DNA of 64,000 bases from Branchiostoma lanceolatum (taxonomy: Eukaryota > Chordata > Leptocardii > Amphioxiformes > Branchiostomatidae). The position numbers and the translations under genes are program-made. Shown here piece by piece: positions 5,796-58,155 of this stretch. The notes below the pieces were generated by a model. That model saw only the letters and a program-made list of their open reading frames with translations. It had not been told where the DNA came from and did no database searches. Each line of letters begins with the position of its first letter. Within the stretch, counting starts at the first letter, position 1. The DNA is taken from contig NC_089722.1 in NCBI RefSeq assembly GCF_035083965.1, forward strand, positions 25,917,081-25,981,080, read 5' to 3'.

Positions 5796-5882
5796 ATGAG
5801 CTTCGGGACGCAGGCAGTCGTCGTTCTGGCGTGTATCATGAGTTTCACCTGGTTCATACCCTTGATCATACCTTTCATTTAA
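5796..5882 (+). CDS. Micropeptide, single hydrophobic helix, array copy 3 (28 aa)
   Basis: This 28-residue ORF starts MSFGTQAVVVLACIM, continues SFTWFIPLII and ends PFI. An in-frame TAG at 5775-5777 just upstream excludes a longer protein, and -3 is G. It is paralogous to the ORF at 3419, with GTQ, SFTW and the proline at the same positions although many third bases differ, which suggests constraint on the peptide. A donor (CAAG/GTGAGG) lies 10 nt after the stop, and the duplicated 3' UTR block with AATAAA follows at 6562-6979. Probably a membrane micropeptide; function and family unknown. Confidence 0.7.
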   Translation: MSFGTQAVVVLACIMSFTWFIPLIIPFI

Positions 5883-6561: not shown

Positions 6562-6979
6562 TTCTCCTGTCTAAAACCGATGTTGTCGTTTGTTTGCATT
6601 GTTTCATACATCACAAGGTACATAAATGTATATCATCTTCCACATGCCCACATATTTAAACATTTGTTGGCATCTGGGAGATTCTGATATGACTTGTTTC
6701 ATAGTTACTTGAAGTTAGCCCATGAAAATGACTAGCTTCAACTATCTATGGATTTGCTGTTAATACTCTTCTTGTTGACGAATATACCGAATGTAGTTAT
6801 ATCGTTTTCAATAAGACTGTTTGAACCTGACATCCTGGTTTTACAGTTGGTTTTTAGCGAAGTAAAGCAGAGGTTGCTGGGTTAACGTTAACCTACTTGA
6901 TGAATGGAATAGGTTAATCTAAATGCAATAAAGACAACATTGGCTCAACGTTCTATACGCTTAGTCATCTTATTTTATC
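6562..6979 (+). repeat. Duplicated 3' UTR block, copy B, with poly(A) signal
   Basis: Direct repeat of 4732-5143 with only scattered substitutions. AATAAA is at 6927-6932, followed in both copies by GACAACATTGGCTCAAC. It closes the transcript of the micropeptide at 5796. From here to about 8500 I see no gene that I can support. Confidence 0.8.
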
Positions 6980-8909: not shown

Positions 8910-9888
8910 AACGACCACCAGAGACCTTTTCGGACGAAAGTTGGACACTTTGAATAATCGTTGTTATCAATGGTCCTGACATGGTAATCCATTTCCAGGG
9001 CTCATCTGATGAAATTGGCTTGAACTTTATTGCAACGGAGTTAGCACAAACTTCGTCACGAAAAGGAAGGTGTTTTGGCCGTGCTATCTGGCCAACATCG
9101 ATTTGTACTCATGTCAATTTGATGTGAAAAAATGGATCTGATAGCTCAAGGGAACGCTAGATTATGAAAGCAGTCGTGGAAAGTATGTGTTTCTTAGTTT
9201 TGAGTTTTGTAAATCTATTCCTGTGTGCGGCGTGTTAATGTTAAAGACTTTGAGGTACTTAATGCCTCCGTAACCTCTTTTGTATAGGCTGAAATTTCAT
9301 ACCTCGGTGGAGGGATTATGTTTGTTCTTAGACAAAGAGTTCAGGCTCTTCTCACGTGCTGCTTGTTTGTATGTGCCCCAGTGACTGACGTTCTTTGAAA
9401 ACTGAAGTTGACCGACAATTTTGTAAACAGTTAACTCTATGAACGTTTGAATTGTAATGTTGGCAAACCGCACCAGGAATTCTGCCTCTCTGAATGATGG
9501 CAATGACTGGTAACTGTTACGCACAAAAAATGATGATGAAGAAGAAGAAAAGAAATAAGAACGATTGCTACACGCTCTGTCAATGCGTTTGTAAGGCTTG
9601 TACTTTAATTCCTTTGTACAGAACATGCCAGCATGTTGTATGTTGGAGCGTTAACATCTATTTCTCATGGTAATGCGATTTACTGTACATGTCCAGTTTT
9701 GTTGACTTGTCTCGTTTTATACATAGCATAAGACTACAAAATCTCTACGGTTGTTAGGTGTTTGGACATGTCTGACTATTTGATTATGTTGCTGATAAAT
9801 CGTAACGTTACCAGTGATCAGAGTATCATTTTTCATGTCTACAACGATAACTGGTATCGGTGATACTTATAACTGGTATGTGATACTT

Positions 9889-9894
9889 AATAAA
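9889..9894 (+). terminator. Poly(A) signal of the 117-aa gene
   Basis: AATAAA in ACTTAATAAAGCTGC about 980 nt after the stop at 8909. The intervening sequence has no open frame that I can support. Confidence 0.5.
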
Positions 9895-10220
9895 GCTGCA
9901 CATATTCTGGTCGAGAAACAAAATTTGTGCTGTTTCATTCGGTAGCATCGTCGTATACTATAGATCACAAAAATGGTTGACCCAACATTTTACTGTGTTT
10001 TTACACGGAGGTGGGTAAGACTGGGCTAAAGGCTAAAACTATACGTTTAGAGCTGGCAGACTTTTGTGATAAAAGATCCACTAGACAGGACCATTCTGTT
10101 CCCTTTGCCCATCAATTAAATACAGGAGCTAGGCAGACATAACAGGTACAAGTCAGACAACAATATCGCTGCAATTTGAAATTCCCGCGCACCGAGTATT
10201 TCCCAGCATTCACGGTCATA

Positions 10221-38000: not shown

Positions 38001-41000
38001 AGTCAAAATTCACATAACCTGGGAAAGGAAAGATTGAAGAACACGGTGGGAAAAATCACCTCTACCTTGCAGACATAATCTTGGGCATAACTATGTACCT
38101 TTGGAAGGCTGAAAGTTAGTATTACTGTACTGTTTAGCAATGACATATCTACTGACTGATGTGAAGAAAATATGCTTTCATCATCTGTCTTTGCATTATC
38201 TATCATATTTACCATTTAGGAAGTTAACCCTCTTCCTGCTGCCTAACTCTGTAACAAATGAGGTGCCAAATGGCTACTTCAGAGTGCTAAAGGTTCAACT
38301 GTTGCTGACTTCTTGAACGTTTCACGACACTATAAAAGAACAGCCTCAAGTTCATGATAAAAGATTAGGCTGATTTTCCTCTGGTTTCTCTGGTACATTT
38401 GATCTCTCTGGGGATCTTTTTTTTACACATACATTGGACACTCCTCAGATTTTGGCTAGGCTGGAGGGAGTGAAAGCTTCTGGTTTGCGTTAACTACATG
38501 TACATGTATACTAAACTTGGTAAAAGAATAAAAAACAACAGATAAATAAAGAATCATGACGTTCTACCAGTTGTGCCCTGGACATCTGTGGAGATGGTGA
38601 TGTCATCCAGGTAGACAGAAGGAGTGGTGTACAGTTTGACAGGACGCTGGATTCCTGCGTAGTTAAAGAAATCCATCTGCAAGTTCTGTACAAAGTAGCC
38701 TGGAGGGTACCTTGGGGAAAAAACATAATAATTTCTTATTCACAATATAGGCCCTTGAACTTGCACTCTTCAAAAGAATTTGTTACAATTCTTTGTCAAA
38801 ATTTGTGACTTGTAATTATATAATCATCATGTACCTTTCTTAGTGTATCTTTTCTCTTGTTTAATGGCAATGCTTATTCAGTTCAGTTCAGTTCATCCTC
38901 AGTGAGGTGACACAAATGTCTCCACATGTTCAACATGACAGATTGGAGTTTTTCATCTTTAAGACCAACATCCTCTTCAATTACTTTCTTAAGAGTCAAC
39001 GATGGGCGACCACGCCTATGCTTCTCATCCGGTTTCCAGAGGAGAACCATGCCCGCCATTTCCTCGAGGCGCATAACATGACCGGCCAGAGACAACTACA
39101 GTTGCGAACCTTAGTGCTTATTAAAGTTCTTAAACTAGAGTGCATCACCACTGTTTGTTTATTTGTATGTGTTTGATCAACAGAAAAACGTAATGATGTT
39201 AAACTAGTGATCACCTGTCAGGGTCGTCCATGTATTGGATGGTTCCAGGTGGGATGGTGTGAGGGGTCAGGGTGTTATTCACAGCCACAGTCAGAACGTT
39301 TGGAACCTCGTAGCTCAGAATAGAGGAAGCATCAGCTTCAAATGGAAGATGTCCACCGTCATGTCTCACAATCTCCTTAGAATTAAGCCACTGGAACAGA
39401 AGCATTATGAAAAATGTCTTTGAGACTAGTAATGGAGAAAAGTTCACAAATGATGAATATGTCTCTATACTCTTCCTACATTAATCAGGAATAATTTTCC
39501 AACCAGGTATTGCACATGATGTACATACAAATTGTACTTTCCTATAAGCTGATTGACTGGTTTTGAAATGCAACTTTTTCAGTCTTATCATTGTAGGATA
39601 GAGTATTTTGAAGAAGTGAAAGTGTCTTACACATGTACCAATCCTGCTACACAGAAGGAATTTGGTTCGGTGATGGTTTTCCATGTGTGTTGGTACATAC
39701 GCATCTCAGAGCAAAAAAGTTAATTGTCATGTTTAAATACCGGTAGGTAAAGCAAAAGTTATATGTAACATTTGGTATGAAAACAAAACTCACCGCTATG
39801 GTGTTGTAGTGAGCACTTTCAAACCTGAGTACGGTTCGCTGTTTCACATTCTTCCAGGAGGCAGGGGCGTAAAACGAGCGCTGGTACCACGCCCAACCTA
39901 CGAAATCCCTCAGCTGTCGGTCCTGTGTGATGTCATTGTAGCTGGCTGGTACAGGCATGTCAATCACGGGGCCTGTCTGGGGTCACGTAAGAAAATATCT
40001 CAGTGGATTGATATTTTTTAAATTTTTATATTGATATTGATATTCCTTCCATGATTTCAACAACTCAAAATTAATTTTTGGCTGGCACTAGAAATTAAGG
40101 TCTCTTTCAAACCATAAGATCAGCAGCATAGAAAACACCCCCGTGTCCTGATTGAGATATTCACAACAACTTTGTCTTTTTTAATAGATTTACTAATGTG
40201 GGACCTTACTATTAGTAATGAAAGACCTAAGATACACGAATCATCTTTTCAGGTCAGATTAAAGTTTGTGTGACTCTTCTACTGCAAGAATGGGAGCTAA
40301 AAACTTAATGATATTTGCTGACAACACTTCTGGGGTCTTCGAGGGCCTAATGGATTATATATAACGTATGTACATGCAACCCAGTCTCTACTAGTATATG
40401 AATATGTACAATGCCCGGTTTATAGATGGGACCAAGTGTTTTTTCTTGAAAAAAAATACACGGGAGAGCAGGGTCAGCCATATATGTATTTCTCCCCCTT
40501 CTATGGTGTGGAGTTTAGAGTTAAAATGGGGTATTCTAAGGCTTCTTGAGGGGAGAAATTACCGTCAGACAGCTCACAGTTGAAGACTGGCCTGACATGC
40601 GGCCTAGTAGGATCCCTGGTAAATCTGAGTTTTATGCTTGTCATAGAATCCCCTGGGTAAGGGGTGTGTGGTTGGAGGATAAGGGTGCATTAATATTGCC
40701 CCTCTTCCTGAGTTCCTCCCTCTTCAGAAAGGCGGGCATCTGGCTACCTGTTCTAATGGTTTTGTCCACCACTGCTGCTCAAATCCAGCATTTCTGTTGG
40801 ACGACATGTCTGCTCGGAACTTCCACATTCCTCCGAGTTCCCGGACCTCTCTGGATTCCGACTCCCGGGGAAACAGCATCCCTTCAGAAGCAGATGATGT
40901 CAGACTAGATCTAGAAGCCTCCACACCATGTGCAGCAGCGTGGAAACCAGTTCTCATCACAAGCACTGCCGCAACTGGACAAAAAAGAAGAATTACCTTT

Positions 41001-41614
41001 GAAAAATTGTGAAGAAATTCACTGCCACTCTGGCAGGCAGGGGAAAGTCTGACTCTGACAAGACTCCATAGGGAGTAAATATTGCAGTATCAAGAATTCT
41101 TAGAGACCTTGCAATGCTAACCAGTTGATCAACACTTTTAAAAGTAAAAGGTGCAACACTGAAATACAACATTGTAATGTTTAGTACTGTACTAAATGTT
41201 ACACTCAGTATCAAATTTGTACCGTAAGTTATTTATACATGTATCATCTAAGCACTGTAGATAAGCTACAGGATTCTTTGTCCTGGTGAGATGACACCAA
41301 TCTCATGTACGTATACCAAGGTCAGGTTTAAACCTCCTTGCAAGTACATGTACATTACTCCGTCATTAGGCAATTGGAGGCTTAGATGAGGAAAATGAGT
41401 CAGTCCAAGCAGCTCGATTGTGAATGACACCTTGATAGGATTCAAAAACAACATATTTGCATAGACAGTGTACAAATTGATAACTAGAAATATGAACTGT
41501 CCCGCTAAGTTCGAACATATAACACCAAAACATGTTACATCTAACGGTAATAAAGTTTTCGATTTGTTAAAACCCACCATTTAGCGCGGAGAAGAGCGAC
41601 ATCATCGTGAACAT
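32083..41614 (-). CDS. GUSB: Lysosomal beta-glucuronidase
   Basis: Thirteen coding exons on the minus strand: 41578-41614, 40748-40974, 39794-39976, 39215-39390, 38568-38710, 37825-38018, 37224-37367, 36655-36833, 35817-35963, then either 35349-35433 or 34836-34923, then 33442-33618, 32683-32854, 32083-32216. Phases match, giving about 666 aa (human 651). A signal peptide ([19 protein letters not shown]) spans the first intron. The sugar-binding domain starts GMLFPRES and contains [16 protein letters not shown]. The GH2 catalytic barrel has [16 protein letters not shown], acid/base Glu in WSVANEP, nucleophile Glu in QTEYGAD, and [12 protein letters not shown] near the end. It removes terminal glucuronate from glycosaminoglycans. 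Oddity: the tenth exon is present in two versions. Confidence 0.96.
34836..34923 (-). other. GUSB: GUSB alternative exon 10, version A (proximal)
   Basis: 88 nt with acceptor TTTGCAG and donor GGG/GTAAG. It encodes [18 protein letters not shown] then [11 protein letters not shown], matching the human VIAHTKSLDPSRPVTF segment between the acid/base and nucleophile motifs. It enters in phase 2 and leaves in phase 0, exactly like version B. Confidence 0.85.
35349..35433 (-). other. GUSB: GUSB alternative exon 10, version B (distal)
   Basis: 85 nt with acceptor ATCTTAG and donor GGG/GTAAG. It encodes [17 protein letters not shown] then [11 protein letters not shown], homologous to version A over its full length and free of stops. 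Including both versions, or neither, would shift the frame, so splicing should pick one. Confidence 0.85.
36254..36610 (+). repeat. Minisatellite of about 56 bp, six copies
   Basis: The unit contains GACCAATCAGCACCAAGGAC followed by ACCATGTTACTATATTTC. Starts are spaced 56 bp apart in the last four copies and about 56-63 bp in the first. It lies in GUSB intron 8. Each unit carries a CCAATCA box by chance or descent. Confidence 0.9.
37470..37635 (-). pseudogene. Partial duplicate of a GUSB exon end with its upstream intron
   Basis: Sequence at 37290-37455 (5' half of exon 37224-37367 plus intron) recurs at 37470-37635. Shared words are CACTGCCCATCACTGTCACC, GGTCAGAATGGGAT and TGCTGAGAACTGCAC. 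The copy keeps the acceptor-like end but its coding part is truncated and degraded, so it is unlikely to be used as an exon. Confidence 0.75.
38883..39095 (-). mobile_element. Fragment of a non-LTR retrotransposon C-terminus
   Basis: An open frame of 70 codons has [13 protein letters not shown], then [18 protein letters not shown] and a final WRH. This is the usual layout of the tail of many invertebrate non-LTR polymerase proteins (GHV.R, RRGRP, WR). It lies in a GUSB intron, antisense to nothing coding. No polymerase domain remains. Confidence 0.55.
40490..40610 (+). repeat. Dispersed repeat, partner of 11946-12100
   Basis: Second copy of the small interspersed repeat seen in LRRC43 intron 4, here in GUSB intron 2. 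Confidence 0.6.
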
Positions 41615-41821
41615 TCGTCGGTTGAAACGAATCTTCATAGGAGACAAAATGAAACGAGATATAGAAAGAAAACAGTTATCCGCCCATATTTTTTACAACC
41701 CGGAAGTCACACGACATGATAGGTCAACACCCGGGAGGTCAGAGAGTAAAGGTGAATCTCAGAGTGAGGTTGAAAATCTTTTCCTCGTGGCCGCAGGACC
41801 AGCGCTTTAAATTCCGCTAAA
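41615..41821. promoter_or_regulatory. Divergent GUSB-PES1 promoter
   Basis: The two start codons are only 207 bp apart in opposite orientation. The gap holds an ETS/GABPA-type site CCCGGAAGT (41699-41707). A pyrimidine stretch, ATCTTTTCCTCG (41778-41789), resembles the pyrimidine-initiator starts of ribosome-biogenesis genes. There is no obvious TATA box. Shared control of both genes is inference. Confidence 0.65.
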
Positions 41822-44800
41822 ATGGGCCGTTTGATGAAGAAAAAGGTGCGTGGAAGAATTATGTTAGGTCGTTTGATTATAGTGGTAGTTGTAGAAGAAC
41901 TTGATGGTCCGTTGTAGTGGTGAAATTTGATGGAAAACGAGGTTAGCTTCGTAGCGTCGTGTTAGCACATGGTGCACTAATCATGCCCCCCTCCCTCAAA
42001 AAATTATGATATACCGTTGACTTTATCTCTGTACTTTTATAAACTCTTCATTCTTATAGCTGAGATTAATTACTGGTAGTCAGTAATAACGATATCATAT
42101 CCATCCACTGCATATTTTGGCCTGAAAATGTAGAATATGAATTGTAACACCACGTGGACGTCAGTTTTATCAAGGAGGTTTTATATAAAACCTCCTTGGT
42201 TTTATTGAATTCAAGAAAATTATTCTGTATTTTCCAGTATGAGAGCGGCGCTGCGACAGCCTACATCACCAGAAACAGAGCCATCAATTACCTACAGATC
42301 AGCCTGCCAGACTTCAGGTAACATTAAACTTAATTAAACTGATCTTGATGCACTAACAGATTGGCAAAATCGTTGGCTTATGTCGTTCAATCCCTCTAAA
42401 TGCCACATCCTCCATATCACCCGTAAAAAGCACCCCATTCTAACCCAGTACTCCCTCTGTGGAGAAGCCCTCACCGGTGTCAAGTCCCACCCCTATCTTG
42501 GAGTACAACTGTCCGACGATCTGCGGTGGGACACCCATATCAACTACGCCACTAGCAAAGCCGGTAGGGTACTAGGGGTCATTCGGCGCAACTGGACCCA
42601 TTGTCCATCAAGAGTCAAGGCCACTTGTTACAAGCGCTGGTGCGGCCCCACTTGGAATATAGTGCCATCGTCTGGGACCCGTATACCACCAAAGGGATAC
42701 AGGCGGTGGAGGCCGTCCAGCGCAGGGCCGCCCGAGTGACTCTGAATGACCACCGGCGGACTAGCAGCGTGACACAAATGCTCAATGACCTGCAGTGGCC
42801 CCTTCTCTCTGAAAGGAGGAGGAACGCCCGCCTCACCTTTCTCTATAAACTAGTCAATAACTACATTAATATAAACACAGACAATCTTCTGAAACCAGCT
42901 CAGGGGCGCACCCGGGGTAGCCACACTCTAAAATTCCAAACATTCAACGCTAAAACAGACTCATTTAAATATTCTTTTTTCCCTCGCACCATACCAGAGT
43001 GGAACGCCCTGCCTAGCGCGGTTGTTACGACTCCCACCGTTGAGTCTTTCCGCGCCAGGCTGGAGGCCTGCCCGCCTTAGCCCGGGACCTCCTCCCCCCC
43101 TACTTTGCCCCTTGCGGGGTTATCTGGGGGCCCAATAAGTTGAATTACATAATCTTGTAAGTTGTATGAAATATATATGATTATAAATTTGCATGTTTCA
43201 AGGAGTGGAAGGATATGCACTGCTTTTCACTGATAACAAAAAGATACATAGAGATACATAATGTACAATTAATGTACAAGCCATGTTACATCTCTTGTTT
43301 TCATGAGACTTGATTTTATGGTAGAAGGAAAAAGAAGGCATTTATTGTTGAATATAAGTTATTATAACCCAATGGAAGTCAGGGCTTATGTTCACAATCA
43401 ATGGTAAAACCACAGTGAAGTTTGCAGTGAAGAGGTAACTGTTAAAACAGTGAACATAAGTTCAACGATAACAGTATTCAATTCTTCTTTGCCCTCCAAC
43501 AGACGACTATGTATCCTGAAGGGAGTTTATCCAAGAGAACCCAAGAACAAGAAGAAGGCCAACAAAGGCTCCACAGCTCCCAGGACTTTCTACCTGATGA
43601 AGGACATTCAGTACCTCTCTCATGAACCAATCATCAACAAGTTTAGGGAGTTCAAGGTAATGTTATCACCAAGTATGGTAATCAAAGGACTTTTAAAATT
43701 TATGCCACATATTATAGAGAGCACAGTTATAACTTATATCCACATGTGAGGCATAATTTTTTCATGTGTTTTTTTGTAGGTCTTTGTCAAAAAGTTGAAG
43801 AAAGCCTTTGCCAAAGCAGAACATGGAAGAGTGGAGACCCTACAGGAGAACAAACCTGTCTACAAACTGGATCACATTATCAAAGAAAGGTGAGTTGGGA
43901 AACCTTTTGGGGACACCACATATGGGAGAAGAAATGTGGTCATACTGTAGTCATAGACTTGAAACTGGGTAGGGTAGCTTAGGAAAGCCTGCAGTACTAG
44001 GAGATGTTGGTAGGTGGCACTCATGTGCAAGTAAGAAAATACCATATGCAGATCTAGATGGGAAAGGGAATTGGTACAAATGTATATATGGAAGAAAGAC
44101 ACGTTTACAAACTTGATAGTTGATTTGTATGCAGCCTGGTATGGGCTTCTAATATTTGTATTATTCCAGTAGTCTGAGGTGAAAGAAATAAACATTTATT
44201 TGCCATATGTGCTATAGAATTTACAGATTTTTGATACCACATACAGCAGGGGTTTTTCTAGAAAAATTGAAGAAGAGGGAGCAAACACAGGCGAGGGAGT
44301 GAATTCTATGTATTTATGGAAGAATCAATCGCTGAGGAAGGCTGTATGCTGGGGATTTAGCTACATCAACATCAACAAAAATACCCCCAAATAACCCCGC
44401 TAAAATCTGAATTCAACAAGGGGGTGCTGGGCTGAAACAAGAGGGTGCAGCGCCCCTCTTTCCTGATTTAGATGAACCCCTGTCATACACATGTATAAAT
44501 GTGCTTGAAATTTAGTTAGTGTGCTTCGGTCACAAAGCAATTGTTTATCTGTATGTACTTCAGATATCCCACATTTGTTGACGCTCTGCGGGACCTTGAT
44601 GACTGCCTGTGCTTGGTGTTCCTGTTTGCAACATTCCCTCAAACCAAGAACATTCCAGGAGACTTTGTACGAAGATGTAGACACTTGTCAGGTATGTTAC
44701 CAGAATCAAACATCATGAAGTCTGAAATTGTAAGTTACATGGTACTTATATTGATCTGAGTTGTAGTATCATTGCAAAAAGTTACCTTTGAATTTTTTAG

Positions 44801-47800
44801 TAAGTGTCAGTAGATATTAGGATTTGCACACATTGCCAATTGTGGAGATGTACAACATCTGTTTCCATAGTTCTCTTTCAGTGTGCTAGAAAAATGTTGA
44901 GAGCCTCTTTGTGACACAGGCACTGTTATCTTCCTACTGTCATCAGAACCTCTCAGATAATCATTGAAAGATGAACTCCTAGAGATTATGTACATGTACG
45001 TTAGTTCCTGTCCAAGTGGAAGGTTTTTTTTACACAATGTTTCTCTGACATTAAGGTGTATACAACAACATGCAGTAAAAGACATACTTGTTTTGTTCCA
45101 GTTGAATTTATGAATTTCATTGTTGCTGCCAAGGCCTTGAAAAAGGTATGAAAATTTGATTCACCCCCCACATTTTCATGCTTATTCTTATATTAATTGA
45201 TATCTATAGGTCAAAAGTACATAGAGTTGTAATTCTTTGACAGGAATACCCTTTAAAGATTTAGTCCTGTTGCCAGTGTTAAATGCATGCAATTTGATAA
45301 ACACTGTAGGACATCTATTAGTAATTATTCTTATATAACACATGCACACTTTGCCAATTGTGGGGATTTTAACAATTGTTTCCACAATTCTCAGTATAGT
45401 ATGCTAGAAAAACGTTGAGAGCCTCTTTGTGACACAGGCATTGTTACCTTCCTACTGTCATCAGAACCTCTGAGACATATTAACACATGGAGATTGTGCT
45501 CATTGGTAAGGAGACTTTGTTTTGGACCAATGGTTGGACAGTATGCAAATCAGCTCTATCATGTGACCTTTTCCAGGTGTTCCTGTCAATCAAGGGTATC
45601 TACTACCAGGTGGAGATGCAGGGTCAGGTGGTCACCTGGCTTGTACCATACAGCTTTGGTTTTAACGCAAAGGTCAGAGTTCACTAGTTCTGTGTTGGTC
45701 TTGGGTCATTTGTCTGTGATATAAAACCTGTATAAAATGAGACAAAAAGGCTCTAAACTCTGAGATTTGTGATTAACCAAGCAAAGTTTCTACTGGTAAA
45801 TATTTGTAGAAATATTCCTCCAGAATAGCAAATGAGCAGTGAAAGCGTATTTTAAAGTCTAATAACTGTGTCCATTGTTTTACAGGCATGTGCAGATGTT
45901 GACTTCCGTGTCATGGCCCACTTTGTGGAGTTCTACATCACCATGTTGGGGTTTGTTAACTTCAAACTGTACACATCCCTGGGGCTGCACTACCCTCCCA
46001 AGGTGAGAGAAATATGGTTAAACAGGCGACACTGCAAGTACAATGCAACTGACAGCCTAATTCCAGAAAAGTTTATTTAAAAAAAAAAGTAAATTGACCA
46101 GATGAATGTAATGTCTACAAGTATGATTAACAAATTTAAAGGTTATCAGTATCTAGCTAACAATAAGATGCGTCCAGGGTCAATTCTTCAAAATTCTGGA
46201 AACCTCAGACAGAATTTGGGCAAACTGTATATCATATCAGAATAAAAAAATGTTTCCCTTTAGTTATTAGTATTCTGCATCTTGATGTAACATAATCAAT
46301 ATCAGGTTATGTTCTTGTGTTCCCAAAAAATTATTTCTTACAATTTTCCGGAATGAGACTGCTAGTCCGAAATTACAGTGTCACCTGTTGTTACCTTTTT
46401 TTTCTGCTTCAGTTATGTAGAATAACATTTTCGTTCTTACATGAGTTCTTACACAGTCAACATTGTCTTTTTATCTTTTATCCAGCTTACGTTTGAAGCC
46501 AAGCTGAAGGATGATGATGAGAAAAACCCCTACTGTCTGGAGTCTGAGGCCACGGGAGAGGTCTGACATTTCACTTCCTTGCTAATGTATCAAAACAACT
46601 TTGATTCCCATTGGCAAAGGTTATGGTTCAACTGAAAATGAAAAGCAAATGTTAAAGTCTCCTTTACATGATAAGACAAAATTGAAAGTTGAACAGAATT
46701 AATGATTGCAATTTCTAATACTACAAGGCTACTGAGAGATACAAATGATTTGTTACAAGTTTCAAGGGCAATGCCATCTTTGGCTCTTTAACATTCACAT
46801 GATTCATTATAGTCTGGAAGGTATCGTTGGTTTTGTCATTGGCATTTGCCTTCCAGCATCTGTTTGTGGGTGATTTATAACATGTTCATCAGAATGCGTG
46901 ATTGTAAAGCTTATGGCCCGAAGCCTACTTTATTTTTGGACCATTTACCACATGATCCATACATCATTGGTTATTCTGAATAGGAATCAGGCTCATTAAA
47001 TCTTTTCATAAGCACTGTGCTCATCTGAATGAGTGCAAAGTAATGTTTTATTGTACAGACATAAAGAAAAGATGGGATTAGTGTAAGAGTTCCACTGTGA
47101 TGCCAAAAATCAGCATCTGGTAATTTCTCATCTTAGTTTTGCTTGGAACCCAAGGCATTTATTAGACTTTGATATTGTTTTTGTAGAAGACCCAGAAACG
47201 TTGAATCGTTATAAAACTGCTCAGTTTTACTAGTGGTAAGTAGTTGTAATTAGGTAATGATTTAGATCCCCATGAATACTGTTACACGGCTACTTTTTGA
47301 AATACTTAATAGTGGCTGGCACAATCTTGCTTTCCACACTTTATAATACTGATGCAGAACAGCGAGAAAAACAGATATGGCATTGTACTGTCTGATTTTG
47401 CACACCACTATTCAGTGCATATGGGTACCCTTATCCTCATGCAAACTGTGGTGTGCTAGAGTAACTGGGGGATACTTTGTGGTGCAGCCGAATACCACAT
47501 GGCTGTGTCATCATTCAGCCCCCATACAGACCCTCTCCCCAACTTCTGCAGCCATTCAACTTTTTAAGACAAGACAAAAAAAGATCTAAAAGTAAACAGA
47601 ATTGTAATCTGTTACAGGAACTATTCTCCATTATGTACATGAAGTATATGTCATGCTAGAGTCACATTGCTGTAGTATCTTATATGTTTTATGTATAGAA
47701 GTCTGTCTATAAAGACTACTGTTTTTCTTTTTCAGAGACTGGCAGCTTTAAGTGCCAGTTTGGCATCTGTGGTAACACAGAATACAGAGGAAGATGAGGT

Positions 47801-47850
47801 AGAACTGGATGAATTTGAGGACAGTAGGGTGAGAACTTGTTACTTCATTT

Positions 47851-47891
<41 letters not shown>

Positions 47892-50800
47892 CATACATGT
47901 TTTGTACAAAGTCCCCTATGCTATGGCTATGTCATATACATTGTACATACTACATGCCATGTACATTGTACATCTATGTGGCCTATAGATTGTAATATTT
48001 TGTGATGCACACTTGCCAGTTGAAAGGGCCTTTCACTTGCCTTTCTACAACTCTCACAAAGTGTGCCAGAGAAATGCTGGGAGCCTCTTTGTGACACAGA
48101 CACTGTTGCCTTGCTGTTGTCATCAGAACCTCTCGGACATTTTGCAACGACAAATGAGATGTCCTGTCTTCAGGCTTTTATATATATTCTGTCTCCTTGA
48201 AACTTTCGGCTGCCACTGTTGTCATCAGAACCAGACATTTTCTTGGGGCAAACGAGATGTCTCTCTAGATACATGTAGAGCAGTAAGAATTCTTAAATAA
48301 ATCTTGTATCTCAAGGTTCAGAAGAACTTTTCCATGGTAGTTCTATAAAGTTTATGTAACCTAACTTTCATTCCCACCTAAGAGGTGATAGCAAAACAGT
48401 TGAACTAAAATCGTTGTTGAAAATTGATATACATGTATGTTAATTTTTGTATCCACATTTCAGACACTGGAGGCAAAACAAGAGGAGGAGAAACAAAAAG
48501 CCTTCCAGAAACTGTTCAATGGTCTCAAGGTGTTTGTATCCAGGGAGGTGCCCAGAGAGCCAATTGTTTTTACAGTCAGGTAAGAAACCAAGAAAATTAA
48601 TGCATTATTCTAGCAATGTTTAGGCATGCAGACCTTGTGTTGTTCCTACATTCCAGTAGCCTAAACAATGTCTTTTACTGTGTCTTGTTTTAAATTGTAC
48701 TGTATGCACACTTGCCAGTTGGTAAGGCCTTTCACTTGCCTGTCTACAACTCTCATAAAGTGTGCCAGAGAAATGTTGGGAGCCTCTTTGTGACACAGAC
48801 ACTGTTGCCTTGCTGTTGTCATCAGAACCTCTCTGACATTTTGCAATGACAAATGAGATGCAGTAGTAATTATAGGATGATATACAACATCCTTGAATCT
48901 TTAGGCAAAGTAGTGGGCAACCTCAAGCCAACCGTACACACTCACGCCGTATCCTCAGAAAATACGTTCCCGTTTAGAACTTTATTCAAGCCCGCATCCT
49001 TGAATCTTTGTTTGCGAAGCCAAGCTGATCGCGAGAGAGTATATACACGTACAAGTTATAGCTGTAGACTGTATTGGCTCATATCATTTATTCTTCTGTT
49101 CTTGAAATATGCAGGAGTTTTGGTGGTGAGGCATCATGGGACAGGTCTGTTGCCATGGGAGCGACATTCGACGAGAGTGATGAGACCATCACCCATCAGA
49201 TCATGGACAGACCAAAAGCTGACAGACAGTATCTATCAAGGTACCTCCATTTATTCATTTATTACTGTATTCCTTACCCATGGTAGCTTGTTCAGGACAC
49301 TGCTTAACAGTGAGGCCCAGGAACAGAACTTAGAAAGTTGACATGTATCTCATTTGTAGATTTTTGAGGAATGCAGTTTATCCTTGATTCTATTAGAGGC
49401 ACAATTCATACAGTCAGTGTAATGGTATTAAACAAAGTTAATTATTCAGAGTTTTATTTTCTATCTAATTTAGTTGTTTAGAGAAAAAAATGTTATTACA
49501 TGTGTCTGTACTGCACATGATTGTTCCTTTTTGTGGATCTCAATGATTTGATTATATAACAACATCCATGATGAACAAGATGAAGTGGGAGGTCTTCAAG
49601 ATACAGTGACATAGCAATCACTGTGCCCTTGTTTAAACATGCCTTATCTTATTTCATTCATGATTCATCATGAACTATACTGGAGTTCTGACGCTAGTTG
49701 GGAAAATAGCTAGGGCTTAGTTTTTTGCAGTTTATACACATCATGATGTTATTTTGAATAGGTACTACATCCAGCCACAGTGGTTGTTTGACTGTGTGAA
49801 TGCCAAGATGCTGCTGCCTGTGGAAGACTACTTCCCCGGTGTAGTCCTGCCCCCCCACCTCTCACCTTTTGTAGAGTACAAAGAAGGTGACTATGTACCG
49901 CCAGAGAAGGAAGCATTGTCCAGAAGGCAGCAGGGTTTGGATACTGGTAAGTCATGAGCATCTTTCATAATCTCACTGAATTTAAGCTGAAAGGTAAAAT
50001 GTATTAAAAGTTAATTTACGGTGTTTACGGGGACATAAGGCCTTTTACTACTGAATAAATCACTGAGTGAGTGAAGCGACTTATCATGATGATACAAACG
50101 TACAATCGTCTTTACTGTTAGTTTGTATGATACAATGTATGTGCACACTTGCTAGTTGAAACTTTGAAAGGTTCTTTCACTTGCCTGTCTACAACTCTCA
50201 CAAAGTGTGCCAGAGAAATGTTGGGAGCCTCTTTGTGACACAGACACTGTTGCCTTGCTGTTGTTATCAGAACCTCTCCGACATTTTGCAGTGACAGACT
50301 AATTGTCTCACCTTTACTTTAGGTGTTGTATTGACTTCTATCTCTGAAACGATGTCGCATAATCCAAACATTGAATGTATCGAGTAGAAATGGTAAAACA
50401 AGAGACATCCTGAATTTGGAGAACCAAATGTCCATAAAATTTCATGTTAATTGATGATGGCAATCCATATGGACTACTTACGGTAATCGTAACTGAATCA
50501 GGCACATTATTTTTTATTACTTCTCTTATGTGCAATATTGCAAGTAACAAGAGATAGTGTATCGTATGAATACCATTTGATATGCTCTAGTTCCTGATGC
50601 ACTTTGCAGAATCAGCTTTAATTGTGCTGATGTGACAGGGTTGCGTGTATTAAGTTACATATAATGTCCTATCACAGATGTCAACACAAAGGATGGAGAC
50701 ATACAATGTACATAAAAAATTGGATTCGGAATGGTTTCTTGTTTATCTGGTATCAAACTTGTGTACTTGGCATTAAGTTAAACAGCATGATGTCACATAT

Positions 50801-53800
50801 AAGAGACATGCTGACATGCAACACATTTTGTAGGAGATGCAGTATCTGAAGAAGCTGATGTTTCAGAGGAGGAGGAGGAAGAAGAGGAGGAGGGAAAAGA
50901 AGAGGAAGAGATAGATGATGAAGGTGATTAAGCTCAAGAAAATAATGAAATCAAAGTGTTTGATATTTTCTAACAAGGGCTGTACATTTATACAAATTGT
51001 AGGCATTCAATAGTAGCCCATTTACGAATCACATTTTGTAGATTTTGTTGTTATAACATAACAGTCAGCCTTAACAATGTGCATGAATGTTAAGATGCTG
51101 TAATGTGTACGTGCACACTTGCCAGTTGAAAGGGCCTTTCACTTGCCTGTCTACAACTCTCACAAAGTGTGCCAGAGAAATGTTGGGAGCCTCTTTGTGA
51201 CACAGACACTGTTGCCTTGCTGTTGTCATCAGAACCTCTCCGACATCTTAAATGACAAACAAGATTTCTTGTCTTCGTGTTTTTACTGTAAACGCAGAAA
51301 TATTTGCGGTGGTTTTATGTTTGCGGTTTTTGCAGCGACCGTTTCACTGCAAACTTAAAACCACCGCAAACATTTTGTCCAATACTCAATAAGTCAATAC
51401 TCAATATGTCACCATAGCGCTGCCGCGAACTTAAAATCACTGCGAACACTCCATTTTGGCCTTAGAGCAAAATAAAAACCACACATTTAAATGCATTTAC
51501 AGTTCTCTGTCTCATCAAAATAGGTCAGAAGAAAGACATACACTGTAGATGTTGATTTTTGTGGTTTTCCTTTTGATGTAATTGATGACAATTGTGATAC
51601 AACAGATGATGAAGAGGAGGAAGATGAAGAAGATGATGATGATGATGATGATGATGAAAAGGAGGAAGAGGTGCAAAAAGTGGAGAGAAAAATGCCAGTC
51701 AAAAGAAAACAGGTCAGTCTTGATTATGCGCATATTTTTCTTGAAATTTATCAAGATCGTATTTCCAAATTCACATTGCAACAGAATACCTAAACAGATG
51801 CCATTGCTACAGTGGATGATGCAGTATAATAGACTGTGTTCCCTCGAGCTATACAAGTATCATCAGGTACATGTATGGTCTACCAATTTGTTAGGCTGGA
51901 TACATATTGACAAAGCTTTTAGAATTATCCCATCAGCTAGCAAATTACTCCAGGGATCATAAAACAATAACCAAGATGTCCCAAAGGAATAGTTAAAGTA
52001 TCTTTCGCAAGCCAAGTGAAATAAGGAGATGATCATGTATTCTTGATTTGTGTGAAGAACTTGAGTTAGGTTCCAAAGGTCTAACAAGGAAGTTTTCAGG
52101 CATCTCATGAGGGGTTCATCTTTTATTTATTTTTTAAAATGTGACAGATGGTGCAGTTCCTATGCATAATGATAGGTGGTGCACCTGCTGATCCAGCCAT
52201 TCCTAATCGATACAACAGTAGCTTTTGATTTCTGCAATTTCCCTCCTTGTATTTCAGCATGCAACTGTATTGCTTTACCGTCTGATTTTGCACACCCCAA
52301 TTATAAGTGCATATGGGTACCCTCTTCCTCATGCACATTGTGGTATGCTAGATTAACTGGGGGATACTTTGTGGTGCAGCCAAATACCACATGGCTGTGT
52401 CATCATTCAGCCCCCATACACACCCTCTCCCTAGGTTCCAGAGCATTCTTTATAGGAAACGTAAGGTTCTGACTGTATGAGAACAGATGGGCTACTACTA
52501 ATGCAGATTCACACACAACCCAAAGTACCTCATTAACAATGATTACGATATAGAAAAGCAATAGAAGCAGTTTTGCAAAAACACAGCAAATGTCTTACAG
52601 ATCAAGATAAAGCTGTGACAAATTTTACCCAAAGAAACTTGGTCAAACTTGCCATAAAAATTTTAGCTAGCTTTGTCTCTTTATCCTGTTCAGAGCGGTT
52701 ATCTTGTGAAAGTGTAAGTAGCCTATCTAAATTGTAACTTGTTCGAAGATTGTGCAGGTCATATTGCCACTTCCTGTTAATCTCCCCTGGGTCCGTGCTG
52801 GGTAATGTGGCGACTGATAGGTATCTTCACGACTCTTTCCCTAATGGATGGTGGCTATTTGGGTCAACGGTGATACTGATAGCATCAATTTAAAGGATCG
52901 AAGACTGCTAAATTATTATGTGTTACACAAGCATAGTGGCACTTGGTGACTGTTAGATTTATGTGAGGTACAACTTGCCACTTTTTCACATAGAGTGTTA
53001 ATATGGTGTTGTTAGCGATTTGTTATGCAGTTGTTGGCCATTCTTTTTAAAAAATGGTACCATAGGGTACACATATACATGCTTATGGTGTTTGATTGAT
53101 ATGTGATGTCCTAATCCGTTGGAAGCTGTTAATTGGAGATACACAAAAGTGCACAGAAAAGCACATCCAAAACAAACAAAAAAGTGCATAGATTTTTCAT
53201 GGATTTTTTTTCAATGGTGGATGTCATTGTAACTGAAGTGGACATATACAATGTACCTGTGCTCTCAGTTCTAATAGCATTAAAGCTAATATGGTTATAT
53301 GGCTAGTGTATTACAGAAGGATCAATTCACAATTAGAGTTGATTCACTTTAACCCAGGCACTTCATCAAGAAGAAAGATTTTCTATTCAAATGGTCATAG
53401 GGGTAGGATGAGTTAGATTTTTGTTGATTAAAGCAAAATAATGTGCCCCAGCTTTTGATTAGGCTTTCAAATAAAAGATTTGATGTGGTTATGTAACTTA
53501 CGACAAGTTTTTCTTATGTAAATTTCTATATGCTGTAAGCACAAACATTCTACCCTTTGCAAAATGGATACCATTTCCTGTGCACATTTTTGTGTATGCT
53601 TGGAAGCTGATGGCATGTCAAATAAGCTTTGACAAACTCAATGAAAGCATGCTGGCATTACATTAAAAGATACATGTACACACACAGCTACCATACCCAA
53701 AAACAAAACTTTGGAAATACATACAGGATACATGTAGCCGTAATACACTGTCCTTTTTTTATGGTATCATTTATCTGTCTAATGTTCTTCTCTAAGAATT

Positions 53801-55639
53801 TGTCAACATGCCAGATGACATGGATATGTAGACACATTTTTCTGTATCATGGTCCTATTTCGATTGCATCGGATGTTTTTTTTCTGGATAAACCAATTTG
53901 TAGTGCAATTGGGGCTATCACTGTCTAGTAAAAATCCTGTTTGTACTGAACTGTCCTCCACCCACACAACAGTATTAGATTTAGACATGGTTATATTTAT
54001 GGGTTAATTCAATTTGTATTCACCTTCATCAATAGAATGGAAGGTCACACTAGCATTGAAGGTTTCACAGAATTGTGTAGTTTGATAAAGTGTGTTATTA
54101 GGCAAGTGAATGTCTCTTGGTTGTGTGCAAGAACTTTACAGAGGAACACAAGGAAAAAGATTTGATTGAAGTGAACCCCAAAACTGCCACATAGACTGAT
54201 GAAGACAACTGTATTGCTATGAAATTAACAAATTATATTGATATGAAGTAGTCTTGATCAGGACATGGGGTAGGGAATTTTCCTGAGCATCCTTGAGTTC
54301 GTAACCCTTTCTTCTATTGGGTCAGTTATATTTGACTCACGCCTTGCGTGTTAAAGGTGCCCTAAGTGATTTCAGGGGGTAAAACTTGAAATATTCTGGG
54401 GAAAACAATTCTGTTTTGTGAGGTTGAAATTGACATTTGCTTCCCCATATTAGCACATCTGCATCATTATTTCAGACTTTGGGCGTTTAAAAATAGCACA
54501 GAAGCAAGTCACAAAAGGAGTATTTTATTTATTGGGTCCCCCAAAAAATCAGCCCAGAATCCAGCCGTAACCATTTTCTGTCGACAATTTTCGGTAACTT
54601 CCGGCAGCGTGACGTCACAATACCTAAGGACATTGAGCGATGACCACGTGATTATTTCTTCGGATGCGTTCGGGACTTATCGGTCAGAATCGTGCATGTT
54701 CGGAAGATTTGAAATGATGGCTGGCCTCCAAGTGCTCAGATTTTCAATGAGTTCCCACCACACAACGACATCACATTTTTGCTCCATGATGGTCGATATG
54801 TGATGGTATAGTGTTATCTAAACTTACTATGGATAGAAATCAGAAAAAAATTGATTTTGAATATATGACTTTCAGGGCCCTAATGTTGCTTAGGTTGTCT
54901 TTAATGACTTAGGGATAAGGCATCCTGTTTCAGGCCTTTTCATGTAACGTGTAATCTTGAAGTAGCCTTTGGGTCTGGTTACATGCATGGTGACTATTGT
55001 TAGTATTGAGTAAAAAATGTTTAAGTCAAGCATAGGATAAAGCATTACTTAATGTCACTTCCAGTGAAACATTTACAAGCTTTTAGAAACTTAGGTTATC
55101 CATACCAGATCAGAAGATTCTATTGGAAAAGAAGTTTCTGACATAATTAGTTGGATTACTATACCACCAGCCAGTGAACTGTCTGTAGGAGGCATCTTAT
55201 TATCTGGGGATTTGGCTCATCCCTGTTGAGGCATTTAAAAGCCACGGGAGAGATGAAGATAAAAGGACGTCTTAGACAATGATGGAAGAGATGTCCTCAG
55301 CGTTTTCTTGGATCAACTTATTTTGCTGGAGATGAGATGGTAGAGATTGTCACCTCGGGCCTTAAAGAGCCCCTCAGGTGTTGCCGTACCTTCTAAAAGT
55401 CTCTTTGAACTAAAAGTGATGGTACCATTACTGGTAGTGAAGACAGCCAGACACTTCTGGTAGACTGACTATCAATCTGGATTCCTATAGTGTCTGATGG
55501 ACTCCTGACTTTAATTTCTTTCAACCGGCTTGTTTTTAATACATTAATCAGCAATCACGTTGTAATTAAGGTAGATGACCAGTATAACAGTTACTGTGTT
55601 AATGTACAGCTTTATTTTAATTTTTTTCCCTGATAATGA

Positions 55640-55700
<61 letters not shown>

Positions 55701-57897
55701 TGCGTAGTTATTACTTAAAAAGGGTTGAGGTCACCCTTTGATGTCTGTAAGCACCTCTCTGCTGCCATAACCCATAACCAATATAGAGTTGGTTCCAAGA
55801 AGCCTGCTTCAGTAGGGGTCACAGCACAGTACTTTTTAGGTGGAAGTTAGATATATCCCAACAATGATTACTGTAATGTTTTGTAACAACTTACCAGGTT
55901 TAAAAATAGGAATGTTCTTTTATGTAGAATTATTCAATCAGATATGTAGTGCTCATTGTATGTTTGTATCATTAGCTGATAAAAATTTCAAAGCAGTATT
56001 TCCAAAGCTAAAGAATATCGTGAAACAAAAACAGCATCTAACTTCTCTCCCTCTCTCTACCTTTTCCTAATGAAGGATGATGTCCCAGAGACTCCACCCA
56101 GCAACATGAAAGTCAAGGAGGGAAAACTGGACTACGAGGATGCAAGTTCAAAGGCAAATCGGGAGGAGTGGGAGGCCAGGAAGTTGGCGATCCTCATGAT
56201 CCCCAAGAAACGGAAAAGGCTCTTCGAGAAACTTTCCAAGAGGGAAAGGAGGAAGAAACATGAGGTAGGGAACTATAGACTATATATTGTAACAGGAGAA
56301 ATGTATAGAAATATTAATGTATTTTGATGTGCTTCTTTGCAATTTTGTGAAGAATCTAAGGCCCCCATTGGAGGACTTTGGTGCTTAAACGGAAACATTC
56401 TCCACCAAAGAAAAAATTGCCTAATGTTTCCATTTATAACAACCTATTTGTTTCATTTTATCATATTTGAAGTCTTTTTATCTTCGCCCAGAAGATGACC
56501 AGTACATTATGTGTTAAACTAGTCCGGACCCAAAAAAAAGATGTTTTGTAAACAAATCTCAGAATCCTTAACTCATTTGTAGGTTAAAATGACATTAGAT
56601 TTGTACTTGTTCTGATCCAAAAAAAGGGGCCTAAATTTAGATTCAAATTTTGAAATACAGGAACAGTCTACTAGTAACAGTCTACCCTTCTCCTATTCAA
56701 ACTGTTACCATAGTTACAAACACGTAGTTCTGTTGAAGTATTTAACAGTCAAGGGAATATGCTAAAACTATCTACTAGTCTGATGATGTTGCCATGTAAC
56801 CATATGTTATTTTGTGAAAACAATATGATACCCATGTGGCAATCAATAATGTGTTGGCATGCTCTATAGCATGTCAATCAGTACATTGTATGCCTGTAAT
56901 TAGATCAACTTTGTTGTAACCATCCTGTACCTCATTGGTGCCAAGATAATTGCTGTTTGTAGTGGTTTCCAGCTTCAGTTGGCTGGCCTCCTACTGTACA
57001 GTAAAGTACAGTGACTAGTCTTGCATTGCAATTGTATACATAATTGCTGCCTTGTGTGGTGTATTTTTGGGAAGTGAATTGATGGAGTATTGAACAGCCC
57101 CAGGGAGCCTTCATGTATAAAAGTGACTGCATCAAATGTAGATTATCTGGCTTTGCAACAGGAATTGATTTTCTTTACAGGAACACAAAAAGACTGATCA
57201 CCAGTCAGTAGAATTGGATGCTTTCCAGCTTTGAGAAAAACAAGAAGCTTTCATGTCGATATGGCGGTGCTGATAGTGGCAATTTTGTTTGGATTTACAG
57301 TTGTGAGGAATTGTAGGGTCATATTATTACATAGTATCAATGTACATATAAGTGCACATTGATCTCACTGGACTGCCCAAAATTGTGCCAGGAAATTTTG
57401 CCAACTTTGCGAATTTGTGCCAATTTTCCCTTGTGCATGGTCACACTGATGTGCAGGGCATTTGCATATGAAGCCAAGATGAGTCAAACAAAATGACCAT
57501 GCCTGGAATGTCACTATCTCAGTTTCAATACAAGATAACTTTTTGGAAATCGCAGTTGCCATTGAATTAAAAAACGATGTACAGTGATTAGAAAGTCATC
57601 AAAAAGATATTTGCATTGATAAGAGGAATGTTAATTGTTCCGTTCAAATTTGGGAAATGTGAATTTTTAGAAATTAAAAAATAATTGGCACCATTTTGTG
57701 CCACTTTGCAAATGCCTGGTGTAAATTTGCCGTAGTCTAGTGAGACACACACTTTAGCCTTTGCCATTTCATACATGATAGAGTAAAAACTGACATAACT
57801 TTGCATTTTTCAGGCAAAGAAACTTACAACCAAGCGAGAGGAGTTCGAAAAGAGCCAGAAGGACATGAAGAAGAAACAAAGGCTTAGTAACAAATAG
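41822..57897 (+). CDS. PES1: Pescadillo ribosome biogenesis factor 1
   Basis: Seventeen coding exons: 41822-41845, 42238-42317, 43503-43656, 43780-43889, 44564-44691, 45102-45145, 45577-45672, 45886-46002, 46486-46560, 47736-47828, 48464-48579, 49115-49240, 49762-49946, 50834-50923, 51606-51712, 56076-56264, 57814-57897. All join in phase to 605 aa (human 588). The pescadillo N-terminal domain shows [54 protein letters not shown] and [14 protein letters not shown] domain (about residues 325-420) has [18 protein letters not shown] and [14 protein letters not shown], ending [20 protein letters not shown]. An acidic Glu/Asp stretch and a Lys/Arg-rich tail follow. The protein is a nucleolar PeBoW-complex member needed for 60S subunit maturation. 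Eight introns' worth of structured repeats, read here as H/ACA snoRNAs, lie within it. Confidence 0.96.
42171..42198. repeat. Perfect 28-nt palindrome
   Basis: CAAGGAGGTTTTAT and its exact reverse complement meet at a TATATA centre, about 40 nt before PES1 exon 2. Possibly two transposon ends left back-to-back. Confidence 0.9.
42335..43165 (+). mobile_element. Truncated, frameshifted non-LTR retrotransposon (3' part of polymerase ORF)
   Basis: A first frame (about 42340-42640) reads [15 protein letters not shown] then [18 protein letters not shown]. After a frameshift near 42630 a second frame continues to the stop at 43078 ([38 protein letters not shown]). These are the usual C-terminal motifs of CR1/L2-type or related non-LTR proteins. 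The catalytic part is missing. Insertion is in PES1 intron 2, about 18 nt after the splice donor, in the same orientation. Confidence 0.85.
44824..44962 (+). ncRNA. H/ACA snoRNA, family I copy 1 (PES1 intron 5)
   Basis: 5' hairpin: GCACAC (44826) pairs GTGTGC (44881). The upper stem is AATTGTGGA with TCCATAGTT, capped by GATGT/ACATC. H box AGAAAA (44888-44893) lies 15 nt below the pocket. 3' hairpin: TTGAGAG pairs CTCTCAG, with an upper stem around TGACA/TGTCA. The terminal box is ATA (44957-44959) rather than ACA. Confidence 0.75.
45342..45480 (+). ncRNA. H/ACA snoRNA, family I copy 2 (PES1 intron 6)
   Basis: 5' hairpin: GCACAC (45344) with GTATGC (one mismatch), upper stem AATTGTGG/CCACAATT perfect over 8 bp. 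H box AGAAAA (45406-45411). 3' hairpin: TTGAGAG/CTCTGAG, then ACA (45475-45477) and three closing bases. The apical loop differs from copy 1 while the stem pairing is kept. Confidence 0.8.
47398..47531 (+). ncRNA. H/ACA snoRNA, family II copy 1 (PES1 intron 9)
   Basis: 5' hairpin: GCACACCAC (47400-47408) pairs perfectly with GTGGTGTGC (47448-47456); upper stem TGCAT/ATGCA. H box AGAGTA (47458-47463) lies 14 nt from the pocket. 3' hairpin: TGGGGG (47466) with CCCCCA (47519), upper stem GGTGCAGCC/GGCTGTGTC. ACA at 47526-47528 is 16 nt from the pocket. Confidence 0.82.
47853..47887 (+). repeat. CT dinucleotide microsatellite
   Basis: Uninterrupted (CT)n in PES1 intron 10, 25 nt after the donor. 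Confidence 0.95.
48005..48142 (+). ncRNA. H/ACA snoRNA, family I copy 3 (PES1 intron 10)
   Basis: GCACACTT (48007) pairs AAGTGTGC (ending 48066), upper stem AGTTG/CAACT. H box AGAGAA (48068-48073). 3' lower stem CTGGGAG/CTCTCGG, where C-G replaces T-G of other copies (a compensatory pair). ACA at 48137-48139. A degenerate extra 3' fragment (TGTTGTCATCAGAACC) follows near 48215. Confidence 0.83.
48704..48841 (+). ncRNA. H/ACA snoRNA, family I copy 4 (PES1 intron 11)
   Basis: GCACACTT (48706) pairs AAGTGTGC (ending 48765), AGTTG/CAACT upper stem, H box AGAGAA (48767-48772), 3' stem TTGGGAG/CTCTCTG, ACA at 48836-48838. The 3' pocket strands CCTCTTTG and TCAGAAC are identical to the other copies. 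Confidence 0.83.
50141..50286 (+). ncRNA. H/ACA snoRNA, family I copy 5 (PES1 intron 13)
   Basis: GCACACTT (50143) pairs AAGTGTGC (ending 50210). The 5' apical loop has an 8-nt insertion that still folds (GAAAG/CTTTC). H box AGAGAA (50212-50217), 3' stem TTGGGAG/CTCTCCG, ACA at 50281-50283. Confidence 0.83.
51111..51248 (+). ncRNA. H/ACA snoRNA, family I copy 6 (PES1 intron 14)
   Basis: GCACACTT (51113) pairs AAGTGTGC (ending 51172), AGTTG/CAACT, H box AGAGAA (51174-51179) 15 nt from the pocket. 3' stem TTGGGAG/CTCTCCG, ACA at 51243-51245, 14 nt below the 3' pocket. Confidence 0.84.
51303..51370. repeat. Small foldback element
   Basis: TTTGCGGTGGTTTT (51303-51316) and its exact reverse complement (51357-51370) form a 14-bp stem, extended by GTTTGC/GCAAAC. 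Related words (CTGCCGCGAACTTAAAATCA) recur to about 51445. A MITE-like remnant in PES1 intron 14. Confidence 0.75.
52288..52423 (+). ncRNA. H/ACA snoRNA, family II copy 2 (PES1 intron 15)
   Basis: Lower 5' stem GCACACCCCAAT with ATTGTGGTATGC (two mismatches in 12). H box AGATTA (52350-52355). 3' stem TGGGGG/CCCCCA with upper stem GGTGCAGCC/GGCTGTGTC. ACA at 52418-52420. The 3' hairpin is almost identical to the copy at 47398; the 5' arm is more diverged. Confidence 0.8.
54340..54900 (+). repeat. Probable interspersed repeat in PES1 intron 15
   Basis: The block opens AAAGGTGCCCTAAGTGATTT and ends near AGGGCCCTAATGTTGC, so the ends share a degenerate inverted motif. It includes a short open frame of no recognisable family. 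The remainder of the 4.4-kb intron (52424-56075) shows no gene. Confidence 0.3.
55643..55697 (+). repeat. GT dinucleotide microsatellite
   Basis: About 27 uninterrupted GT units in PES1 intron 15. Confidence 0.97.
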
Positions 57898-58155
57898 GTA
57901 TGATTCTTGTGCCACTAAGCAACTAAATATGTACAGGTTTAGCAACTTACATGTACATGTAAAGGTACGTGTACAACAACTGTTGTAAATACATGTAAGT
58001 GCTCATTGATGGAAGCAACACTGATGAAAAACTAAAGGATTGTTTGACGAGCACTGCGTCATTTACATGAAAGTGTTAATACTTTTGGAAAGAATTTTAT
58101 GTTCATTGATTTACGAGTTGTTTTTAGTTTTTGCTGACAGTTGATAGTTCTTATT

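Follow-up and report, generated by a model that had tools for sequence, protein, structure and literature searches.

Putative intronic H/ACA snoRNAs, present once per intron, in the PES1 gene of the lancelet Branchiostoma lanceolatum

Analysis of a 64,000-nucleotide (nt) stretch of the Branchiostoma lanceolatum genome (contig NC_089722.1; the whole stretch is referred to as the window) identified eight full copies of a two-hairpin element, all located in the introns of the PES1 (pescadillo) gene, in the sense orientation and one per intron. The eight very probably represent intron-encoded H/ACA small nucleolar RNAs (snoRNAs) that were multiplied by duplication within their own host gene, as judged from the sequence. 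The reading of six of these (c1 to c6) as one family of intronic H/ACA snoRNAs is well supported by their anatomy, register, position, orientation and the limits of their conservation. The remaining two (D5a and D5b) form a second set, which is probably homologous to the first.

Putative H/ACA RNAs in the PES1 introns

An initial annotation of the window had placed six related blocks of 138-146 nt in PES1 introns 5, 6, 10, 11, 13 and 14. All six were recovered from these introns in the spliced gene model, sense and one in each, although the range of lengths shifted to 136-144 nt when each RNA was measured from the first base of the 5' stem to the third base after the ACA (ACA+3). The six members stood, but the list was incomplete: a repeat search identified the D5 pair, one copy in intron 9 and the other in intron 15, and the c-family also has a decayed 3' fragment. 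The features are as follows.

44826..44962, + strand: c1, putative H/ACA RNA, intron 5; H box AGAAAA at 44888, ATA at 44957
45344..45480, + strand: c2, putative H/ACA RNA, intron 6; H box AGAAAA at 45406, ACA at 45475
48007..48142, + strand: c3, putative H/ACA RNA, intron 10; H box AGAGAA at 48068, ACA at 48137
48706..48841, + strand: c4, putative H/ACA RNA, intron 11; H box AGAGAA at 48767, ACA at 48836
50143..50286, + strand: c5, putative H/ACA RNA, intron 13; 5' hairpin 8 nt longer; H box AGAGAA at 50212, ACA at 50281
51113..51248, + strand: c6, putative H/ACA RNA, intron 14; H box AGAGAA at 51174, ACA at 51243
47400..47531, + strand: D5a, putative H/ACA RNA, intron 9; H box AGAGTA at 47458, ACA at 47526; 3' pocket ATACTTT/CATTCAGC
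52290..52423, + strand: D5b, putative H/ACA RNA, intron 15; H box AGATTA at 52350, ACA at 52418; 3' pocket of D5a repeated
~48216..48260, + strand: decayed fragment of a c-family 3' end (TGTTGTCATCAGAACC...GACATTTT), located after c3 in intron 10

The H box fits ANANNA in all eight copies (AGAAAA in two and AGAGAA in four, these being the c-copies, with AGAGTA and AGATTA in the D5 pair). An ACA lies 1-2 nt after the 3' stem in seven of the eight, including five of the six c-copies, and the 3' ends are predicted at ACA+3. The 3' pocket lies 14 nt above the ACA position in 8/8 copies, which for the six c-copies falls within the 14-16 nt that had been claimed; the spacing in these six becomes 13 nt if the G-U pair of the naked folds closes the stem, as in the parse of the descriptor used below. 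The strands of this pocket in the c-copies, CCTCTTTG and TCAGAAC (UCAGAACC / GCCUCUUUG when written as a guide), had been described as invariant and were indeed identical in 15/15 columns. The outer stem of the c-copies is of the GCACAC/GTGTGC type, and BLASTN between different c-copies gave E values of 1e-18 to 1e-49.

The decayed fragment was matched by BLASTN at 48216-48241 (E 0.02-0.16), with its end at 48260 read by eye, and carries part of the 3' flank shared among the copies. The covariance model of the six c-copies scored 48155-48242 at 9.7 bits (E 1.7), which is chance level. Approximately 50 nt downstream of c6, a 30-nt inverted repeat with 90% complementarity and an 18-nt loop was noted (51298-51375); it gave weak matches to miRNA families on both strands and looks like a small hairpin element.

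Folding, conservation and chance controls

The naked minimum-free-energy (MFE) folds showed two successive hairpins in 8/8 copies, including the six for which this design had been proposed. The MFE of the c-copies ranged from -32.1 to -45.1 kcal/mol, with z-scores between -1.33 and -2.77 that are individually modest, and the number of shuffled sequences, out of 200, that folded as well was 8 for c1, 21 for c2, 0 for c3, 6 for c4, 19 for c5 and 5 for c6. The D5 pair gave z-scores of -3.60 (D5a) and -2.15 (D5b). The 3' stem extends into the hinge and tail in the naked folds of c3-c6, and in both the MFE and the consensus folds a UCU pairs with an AGA, closing the unbound 3' pocket of the c-copies. 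When the proposed structure was applied to the six c-copies, 96.5% of 144 pair cells were standard, compared with 30-50% for slid partners, a percentage that is favoured by the structure having been drawn on one of the copies.

The conservation is centred on the predicted RNA. Over the RNA, the mean identity among c3-c6 was 0.83-1.00 depending on the segment, compared with 0.43 across the 40 nt that precede it and 0.62 across the 30 nt that follow ACA+3. Between c1/c2 and c3-c6, the identity was 0.35 upstream and 0.29 downstream of the RNA, and inside it ranged from 0.46 in the 5' upper hairpin to 1.00 in the left arm of the 5' stem and in both strands of the 3' pocket. In the 3' hairpin, 11/59 columns vary and none of these is among the 15 columns of the pocket (P ~0.027 for chance sparing). 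The 5' hairpin varies in 39/70 columns and its pocket in 6/14; the 5' pocket is thus not conserved. Part of the 3' flank is common to c3-c6, which means that duplication took in more than the RNA itself. The likeness between copies could also be due to gene conversion.

A generic two-hairpin H/ACA descriptor, run on both strands of the window, returned 30 places: five of the six c-copies (c2 was missed), one of the D5 pair (D5b was missed) and 24 others, one of which lies antisense over c5. At a score of at least 21.5, a cut picked after the scores had been seen, six places were in PES1 introns in the sense orientation and four were elsewhere. Since the descriptor also matches 24 other places, the structure of a single copy is indecisive; it is the in-register repetition in eight introns, all sense and one per intron, that decides for H/ACA identity. 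The best unrelated descriptor matches were located at 1200-1346 (+), 6624-6745 (-), 9833-9986 (-), 56476-56604 (-) and 57925-58064 (-), with scores of 21.0-24.5, and are probably chance.

No other full copies were found within the 64-kb window by BLASTN or by the six-copy model. BLASTN also matched c2 weakly and in part to a place outside PES1, at 33743-33794 (+; 39 of 53 nt, E 0.001). This match was rejected as a copy: it extends over just a portion of the 3' hairpin and tail, is absent from the model matches and has no two-hairpin H/ACA fold. Searches of phage records with c3 as the query, and of IMG/VR with one pattern per set, gave no sequence match.

Relationship of the two sets

A covariance model was built on the six c-copies alone and run unfiltered over the whole window; its E values are rough. 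The c-copies scored 146-172 bits, followed by D5b at 22.2 and D5a at 22.1 bits (E 0.0016 and 0.0017, respectively), ahead of 29 other rows at E <=10, the top ones of which scored 20.1 and 16.4 bits and folded no better than shuffled sequences. The model matches at 39537, 9385 and 53591 were rejected as members, as their folds were no better than those of shuffled sequences (48, 59 and 35 of 200). The 3' hairpins of the two sets can be aligned and have GCNAGA, CUUUGUG and UGUNAUCA in common, and the 3' outer stem shows a double change from A-U to G-C between the sets. The c-copies and the D5 pair are thus probably paralogous sets with a common ancestor and differing targets.

Predicted targets

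Candidate targets were sought in eukaryotic ribosomal DNA found inside public prokaryote genome records, which represents protist and not lancelet ribosomal RNA (rRNA). Of 15 loci, L009 and L011 were confirmed by Rfam as eukaryotic large-subunit (LSU), small-subunit and 5.8S rRNA. L002, L005, L010, L013 and L015, which look eukaryotic and are without Rfam confirmation, were also scanned, and L001, L003, L004, L006, L007, L008, L012 and L014 were set aside because they look archaeal or are doubtful. A provisional human set comprising 18S, seven 28S segments, U1, U2, U4, U5 and U6 was scanned in addition. L011 carries a group I intron at 5392-5807, inside the 28S match, and its contig is filed under a Chloroflexota genome.

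The top site of the D5 pocket in L011 was GCUCUGAAUG-[UC]-AAAGUGAAG, with 7 + 6 pairs and a score of 29, which was equalled by 1 of 300 shuffled guides (mean 20.4). This 28S site was the top site in five of the seven loci (L011, L009, L005, L010 and L015) and also in the provisional human set, where 0 of 200 shuffles were as good. The predicted target is 28S CUGAAUG-[U]C-AAAGU. Its uridine precedes by 47 nt the first site of pseudouridylation in helix 69, taken as position 3741 in human 28S numbering; by this offset, the D5 site would correspond to human 28S-3694. Provided that the D5 pair acts as a guide, it is likely that the uridine equivalent to human 3694 is its target.

For the six c-copies, a target of the form GTTCTGA-UN-CAAAGAGG had been predicted; however, it was no better than those of shuffled guides in either the protist rRNA or the provisional human RNAs. 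The scans used pocket frames of 14, 13 and 16 nt, with shuffle controls on the 14- and 13-nt frames. In L011, 233 (14-nt frame) and 79 (13-nt frame) of 300 shuffles were as good, and in the provisional human set the corresponding counts were 71 and 188 of 200. When gaps of 2, 2-3 and 2-4 nt were allowed in the 14-nt frame, 132, 71 and 83 of 200 shuffles were as good in L011, and 63, 36 and 9 of 200 in L009. The lowest of these counts (9 of 200) belongs to an LSU site of L009 that is outside the top rows in L011, and the wider gaps did not lead to a consistent site. The 5' pockets gave 158, 66, 193 and 149 of 200 shuffles as good for c1, c2, c3 and c4, respectively, and, in two frames each, 98 and 119 of 200 for D5a and 139 and 190 of 200 for D5b. 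The PES1 pre-mRNA was tried as a target of the six and rejected, as its best site, in intron 16, was equalled by 14 of 60 shuffles. A lancelet-specific target for the c-copies is possible.

Following the general pathway of H/ACA processing and pseudouridylation, each RNA would be released from the spliced PES1 intron by exonuclease trimming, which would stop at the H/ACA core proteins assembled on it; the proteins bound by RNAs of this class are dyskerin, NOP10, NHP2 and GAR1. A target uridine would sit in the 3' pocket and be pseudouridylated by dyskerin. Transcription, processing, protein binding and catalysis are inferred for these RNAs.

Weighing of the evidence

A number of observations weigh against this interpretation. 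ATA replaces ACA in c1, and in the naked MFE folds of c2-c6 and D5a the ACA box is partly or fully paired. The fold z-scores of c2 and c5 are modest (-1.33 and -1.48). Covariation is thin because the c-copies are close in sequence: there is one double-change pair, a level reached by 288 of 500 shuffles, and RNAalifold counts two covarying pairs. A covariance-model search, which had been suggested as a check, placed no copy in an Rfam family at the gathering score, and the whole-window scan at E <=0.5 was empty. One partial match, at 33743-33794, lies outside PES1, and no target of the six rises above shuffles in the protist rRNA or the provisional human rRNA and small nuclear RNA. The D5 model score (22 bits) is barely over that of the next, unrelated match (20.1 bits); as this margin is small, homology to the c-copies rests also on the shared motifs and place. 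The D5 28S site is second in L002 and L013, where it is diverged, and in L009, the rRNA of which is diverged, it is the top site, yet 28 of 200 shuffles are as good.

If these sequences were copies of a short hairpin-bearing element, mobile or repetitive, lodged in the PES1 introns and containing no functional RNA gene, one would understand the repeated sequence and the decayed fragment at 48216-48260, the part of the 3' flank shared by c3-c6, and the partial match to c2 outside the gene. Such an element is nevertheless very improbable: eight full copies occupy one gene, one per intron and all sense, with no other in 64 kb, their pockets and their H and ACA boxes keep the same register, and the conservation tracks the RNA and the pocket. 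We also consider it decidedly unlikely that the c-family forms H/ACA particles that guide no modification and serve instead a structural role or the splicing or dosage of PES1. The self-closure of the 3' pocket through UCU/AGA and the lack of a target in the rRNA and small nuclear RNA sets scanned would both agree with this, but weak self-pairing is not unusual in an unbound pocket, and pairing of the pocket with the PES1 pre-mRNA is at chance. A precedent for intronic snoRNAs that affect the splicing of their host has been reported (PMC10324135).

The six could also be duplicates, decaying or relaxed, of the 28S-3694 guide represented by the D5 pair, still touching that 28S segment and no longer proper guides, with their number a by-product of duplication. 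The probable homology of the two sets is in line with this, and a 4-nt gap would allow the c-pocket to pair with GUGCUCUGA-[AUGU]-CAAAGUGAAG at the same place in the 28S of L011 (third row, tied with the second). Against this, 83 of 200 shuffles equal the best L011 score once gaps of 2-4 nt are allowed, and a 4-nt gap is a non-canonical pocket geometry. Moreover, the pocket is invariant in the six copies and other parts vary; an invariant pocket amid change elsewhere does not indicate decay, and this explanation is unlikely. A tentative proposal, to which we give somewhat more room, is that a family of the lancelet lineage budded from the conserved 28S-3694 guide, had its 3' pocket retargeted and was amplified to six, and that it guides the modification of either an rRNA site specific to the lineage or a target outside rRNA. 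If true, retargeting by intragenic duplication would have been caught with the ancestor and its descendants side by side in one gene, and a guide family may be seen changing its target. What makes this worth pursuing is that a conserved guide stands beside six copies of a probably related RNA whose pocket is different and frozen.

Host gene and neighbouring sequences

The complete PES1 gene lies on the + strand at 41822..57897, where the spliced gene model joins 17 coding exons into a protein of 605 residues; 16/16 introns are GT-AG. The product contains a Pescadillo_N domain (389.5 bits), its top match in the PDB is chain 8fkp_SM, 'Pescadillo homolog' (669.6 bits), and it is 89-91% identical to the pescadillo proteins of Branchiostoma floridae and a B. 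floridae x B. belcheri hybrid. Among the matches listed in a search of open-access text, no title or abstract dealt with PES1 as a snoRNA host or with lancelet H/ACA snoRNAs.

Two open reading frames were observed in PES1 intron 2 (42338-43080, +), which by eye resemble the end of a LINE reverse transcriptase. Exon-like frames of another gene are present on the opposite strand close upstream of PES1 (~37789-41640, -) and have, again by eye, a likeness to beta-glucuronidase. A Pfam search of four open reading frame pieces from intron 2 and from this gene (two pieces of the latter) identified no family. Microsatellites of the CT and GT types are located at 47853-47886 and 55643-55696 (introns 10 and 15).

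Comparison with known systems

Rfam searches of restricted stretches gave sub-threshold matches to SNORA19, SCARNA3, SNORA9 and PsiU6-40, which are read as reflecting the common H/ACA design and not membership. SNORA19 (RF00413) was the best weak match of c1 (25.6 bits) and the second of D5a (28.1 bits), and its UGCACA stem and UGUGCUA segment also occur here. Membership was rejected, as these 25.6-28.1 bits compare with a gathering score of 80 and the consensus 3' pocket (UAAUUA / CAGUC, as read) differs from both pockets. Two U6 guides were matched weakly, SCARNA3 by D5a (28.8 bits), D5b (29.9 bits) and c1 (17.0 bits), and Drosophila PsiU6-40 by D5b (18.4 bits) and c1 (17.7 bits). These were likewise rejected: the scores are under the gathering scores (47 and 48), and the 3' strand does not fit GGAACGA, the U6 target of the 3' guide strand in both families. 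No CAB box was seen by eye in the loops.

The predicted D5 site is shared with SNORA27 (ACA27), the human guide of 28S-3694 and 28S-4522, which differs in having RPL21 and not PES1 as its host (PMC6466398). The SNORA27 covariance model found no match in D5a (E <=1) or in 43000-54000 (E <=10); what SNORA27 and the D5 pair would have in common is the site, and not demonstrably their ancestry.

The arrangement of one copy per intron in a ribosome-biogenesis gene had been called classic, and the pattern is indeed known from two earlier reports (PMC2653536, PMC3412847). Intragenic snoRNA duplication has been described in sponges, with nematodes and platypus cited (PMC3412847), and in humans 79 of 581 host genes contain several snoRNAs (PMC10234308). 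General knowledge of snoRNA action is unchanged by the PES1 copies, the best reading of which is an ordinary one. If it is right, PES1 would be a snoRNA-rich host in the lancelet, linking the dosage of guide RNAs to how a 60S-assembly gene is expressed. The closest likeness is to chicken, in which intragenic (cis-) duplication of intronic snoRNA paralogs is reported to be the main force behind new snoRNAs (PMC2653536). The present case differs in being a lancelet H/ACA family in PES1, with six plus two copies, predicted from sequence; in the chicken paralogs, too, the copies lie in different introns of one host and the guide regions are kept as the rest varies (PMC2653536).

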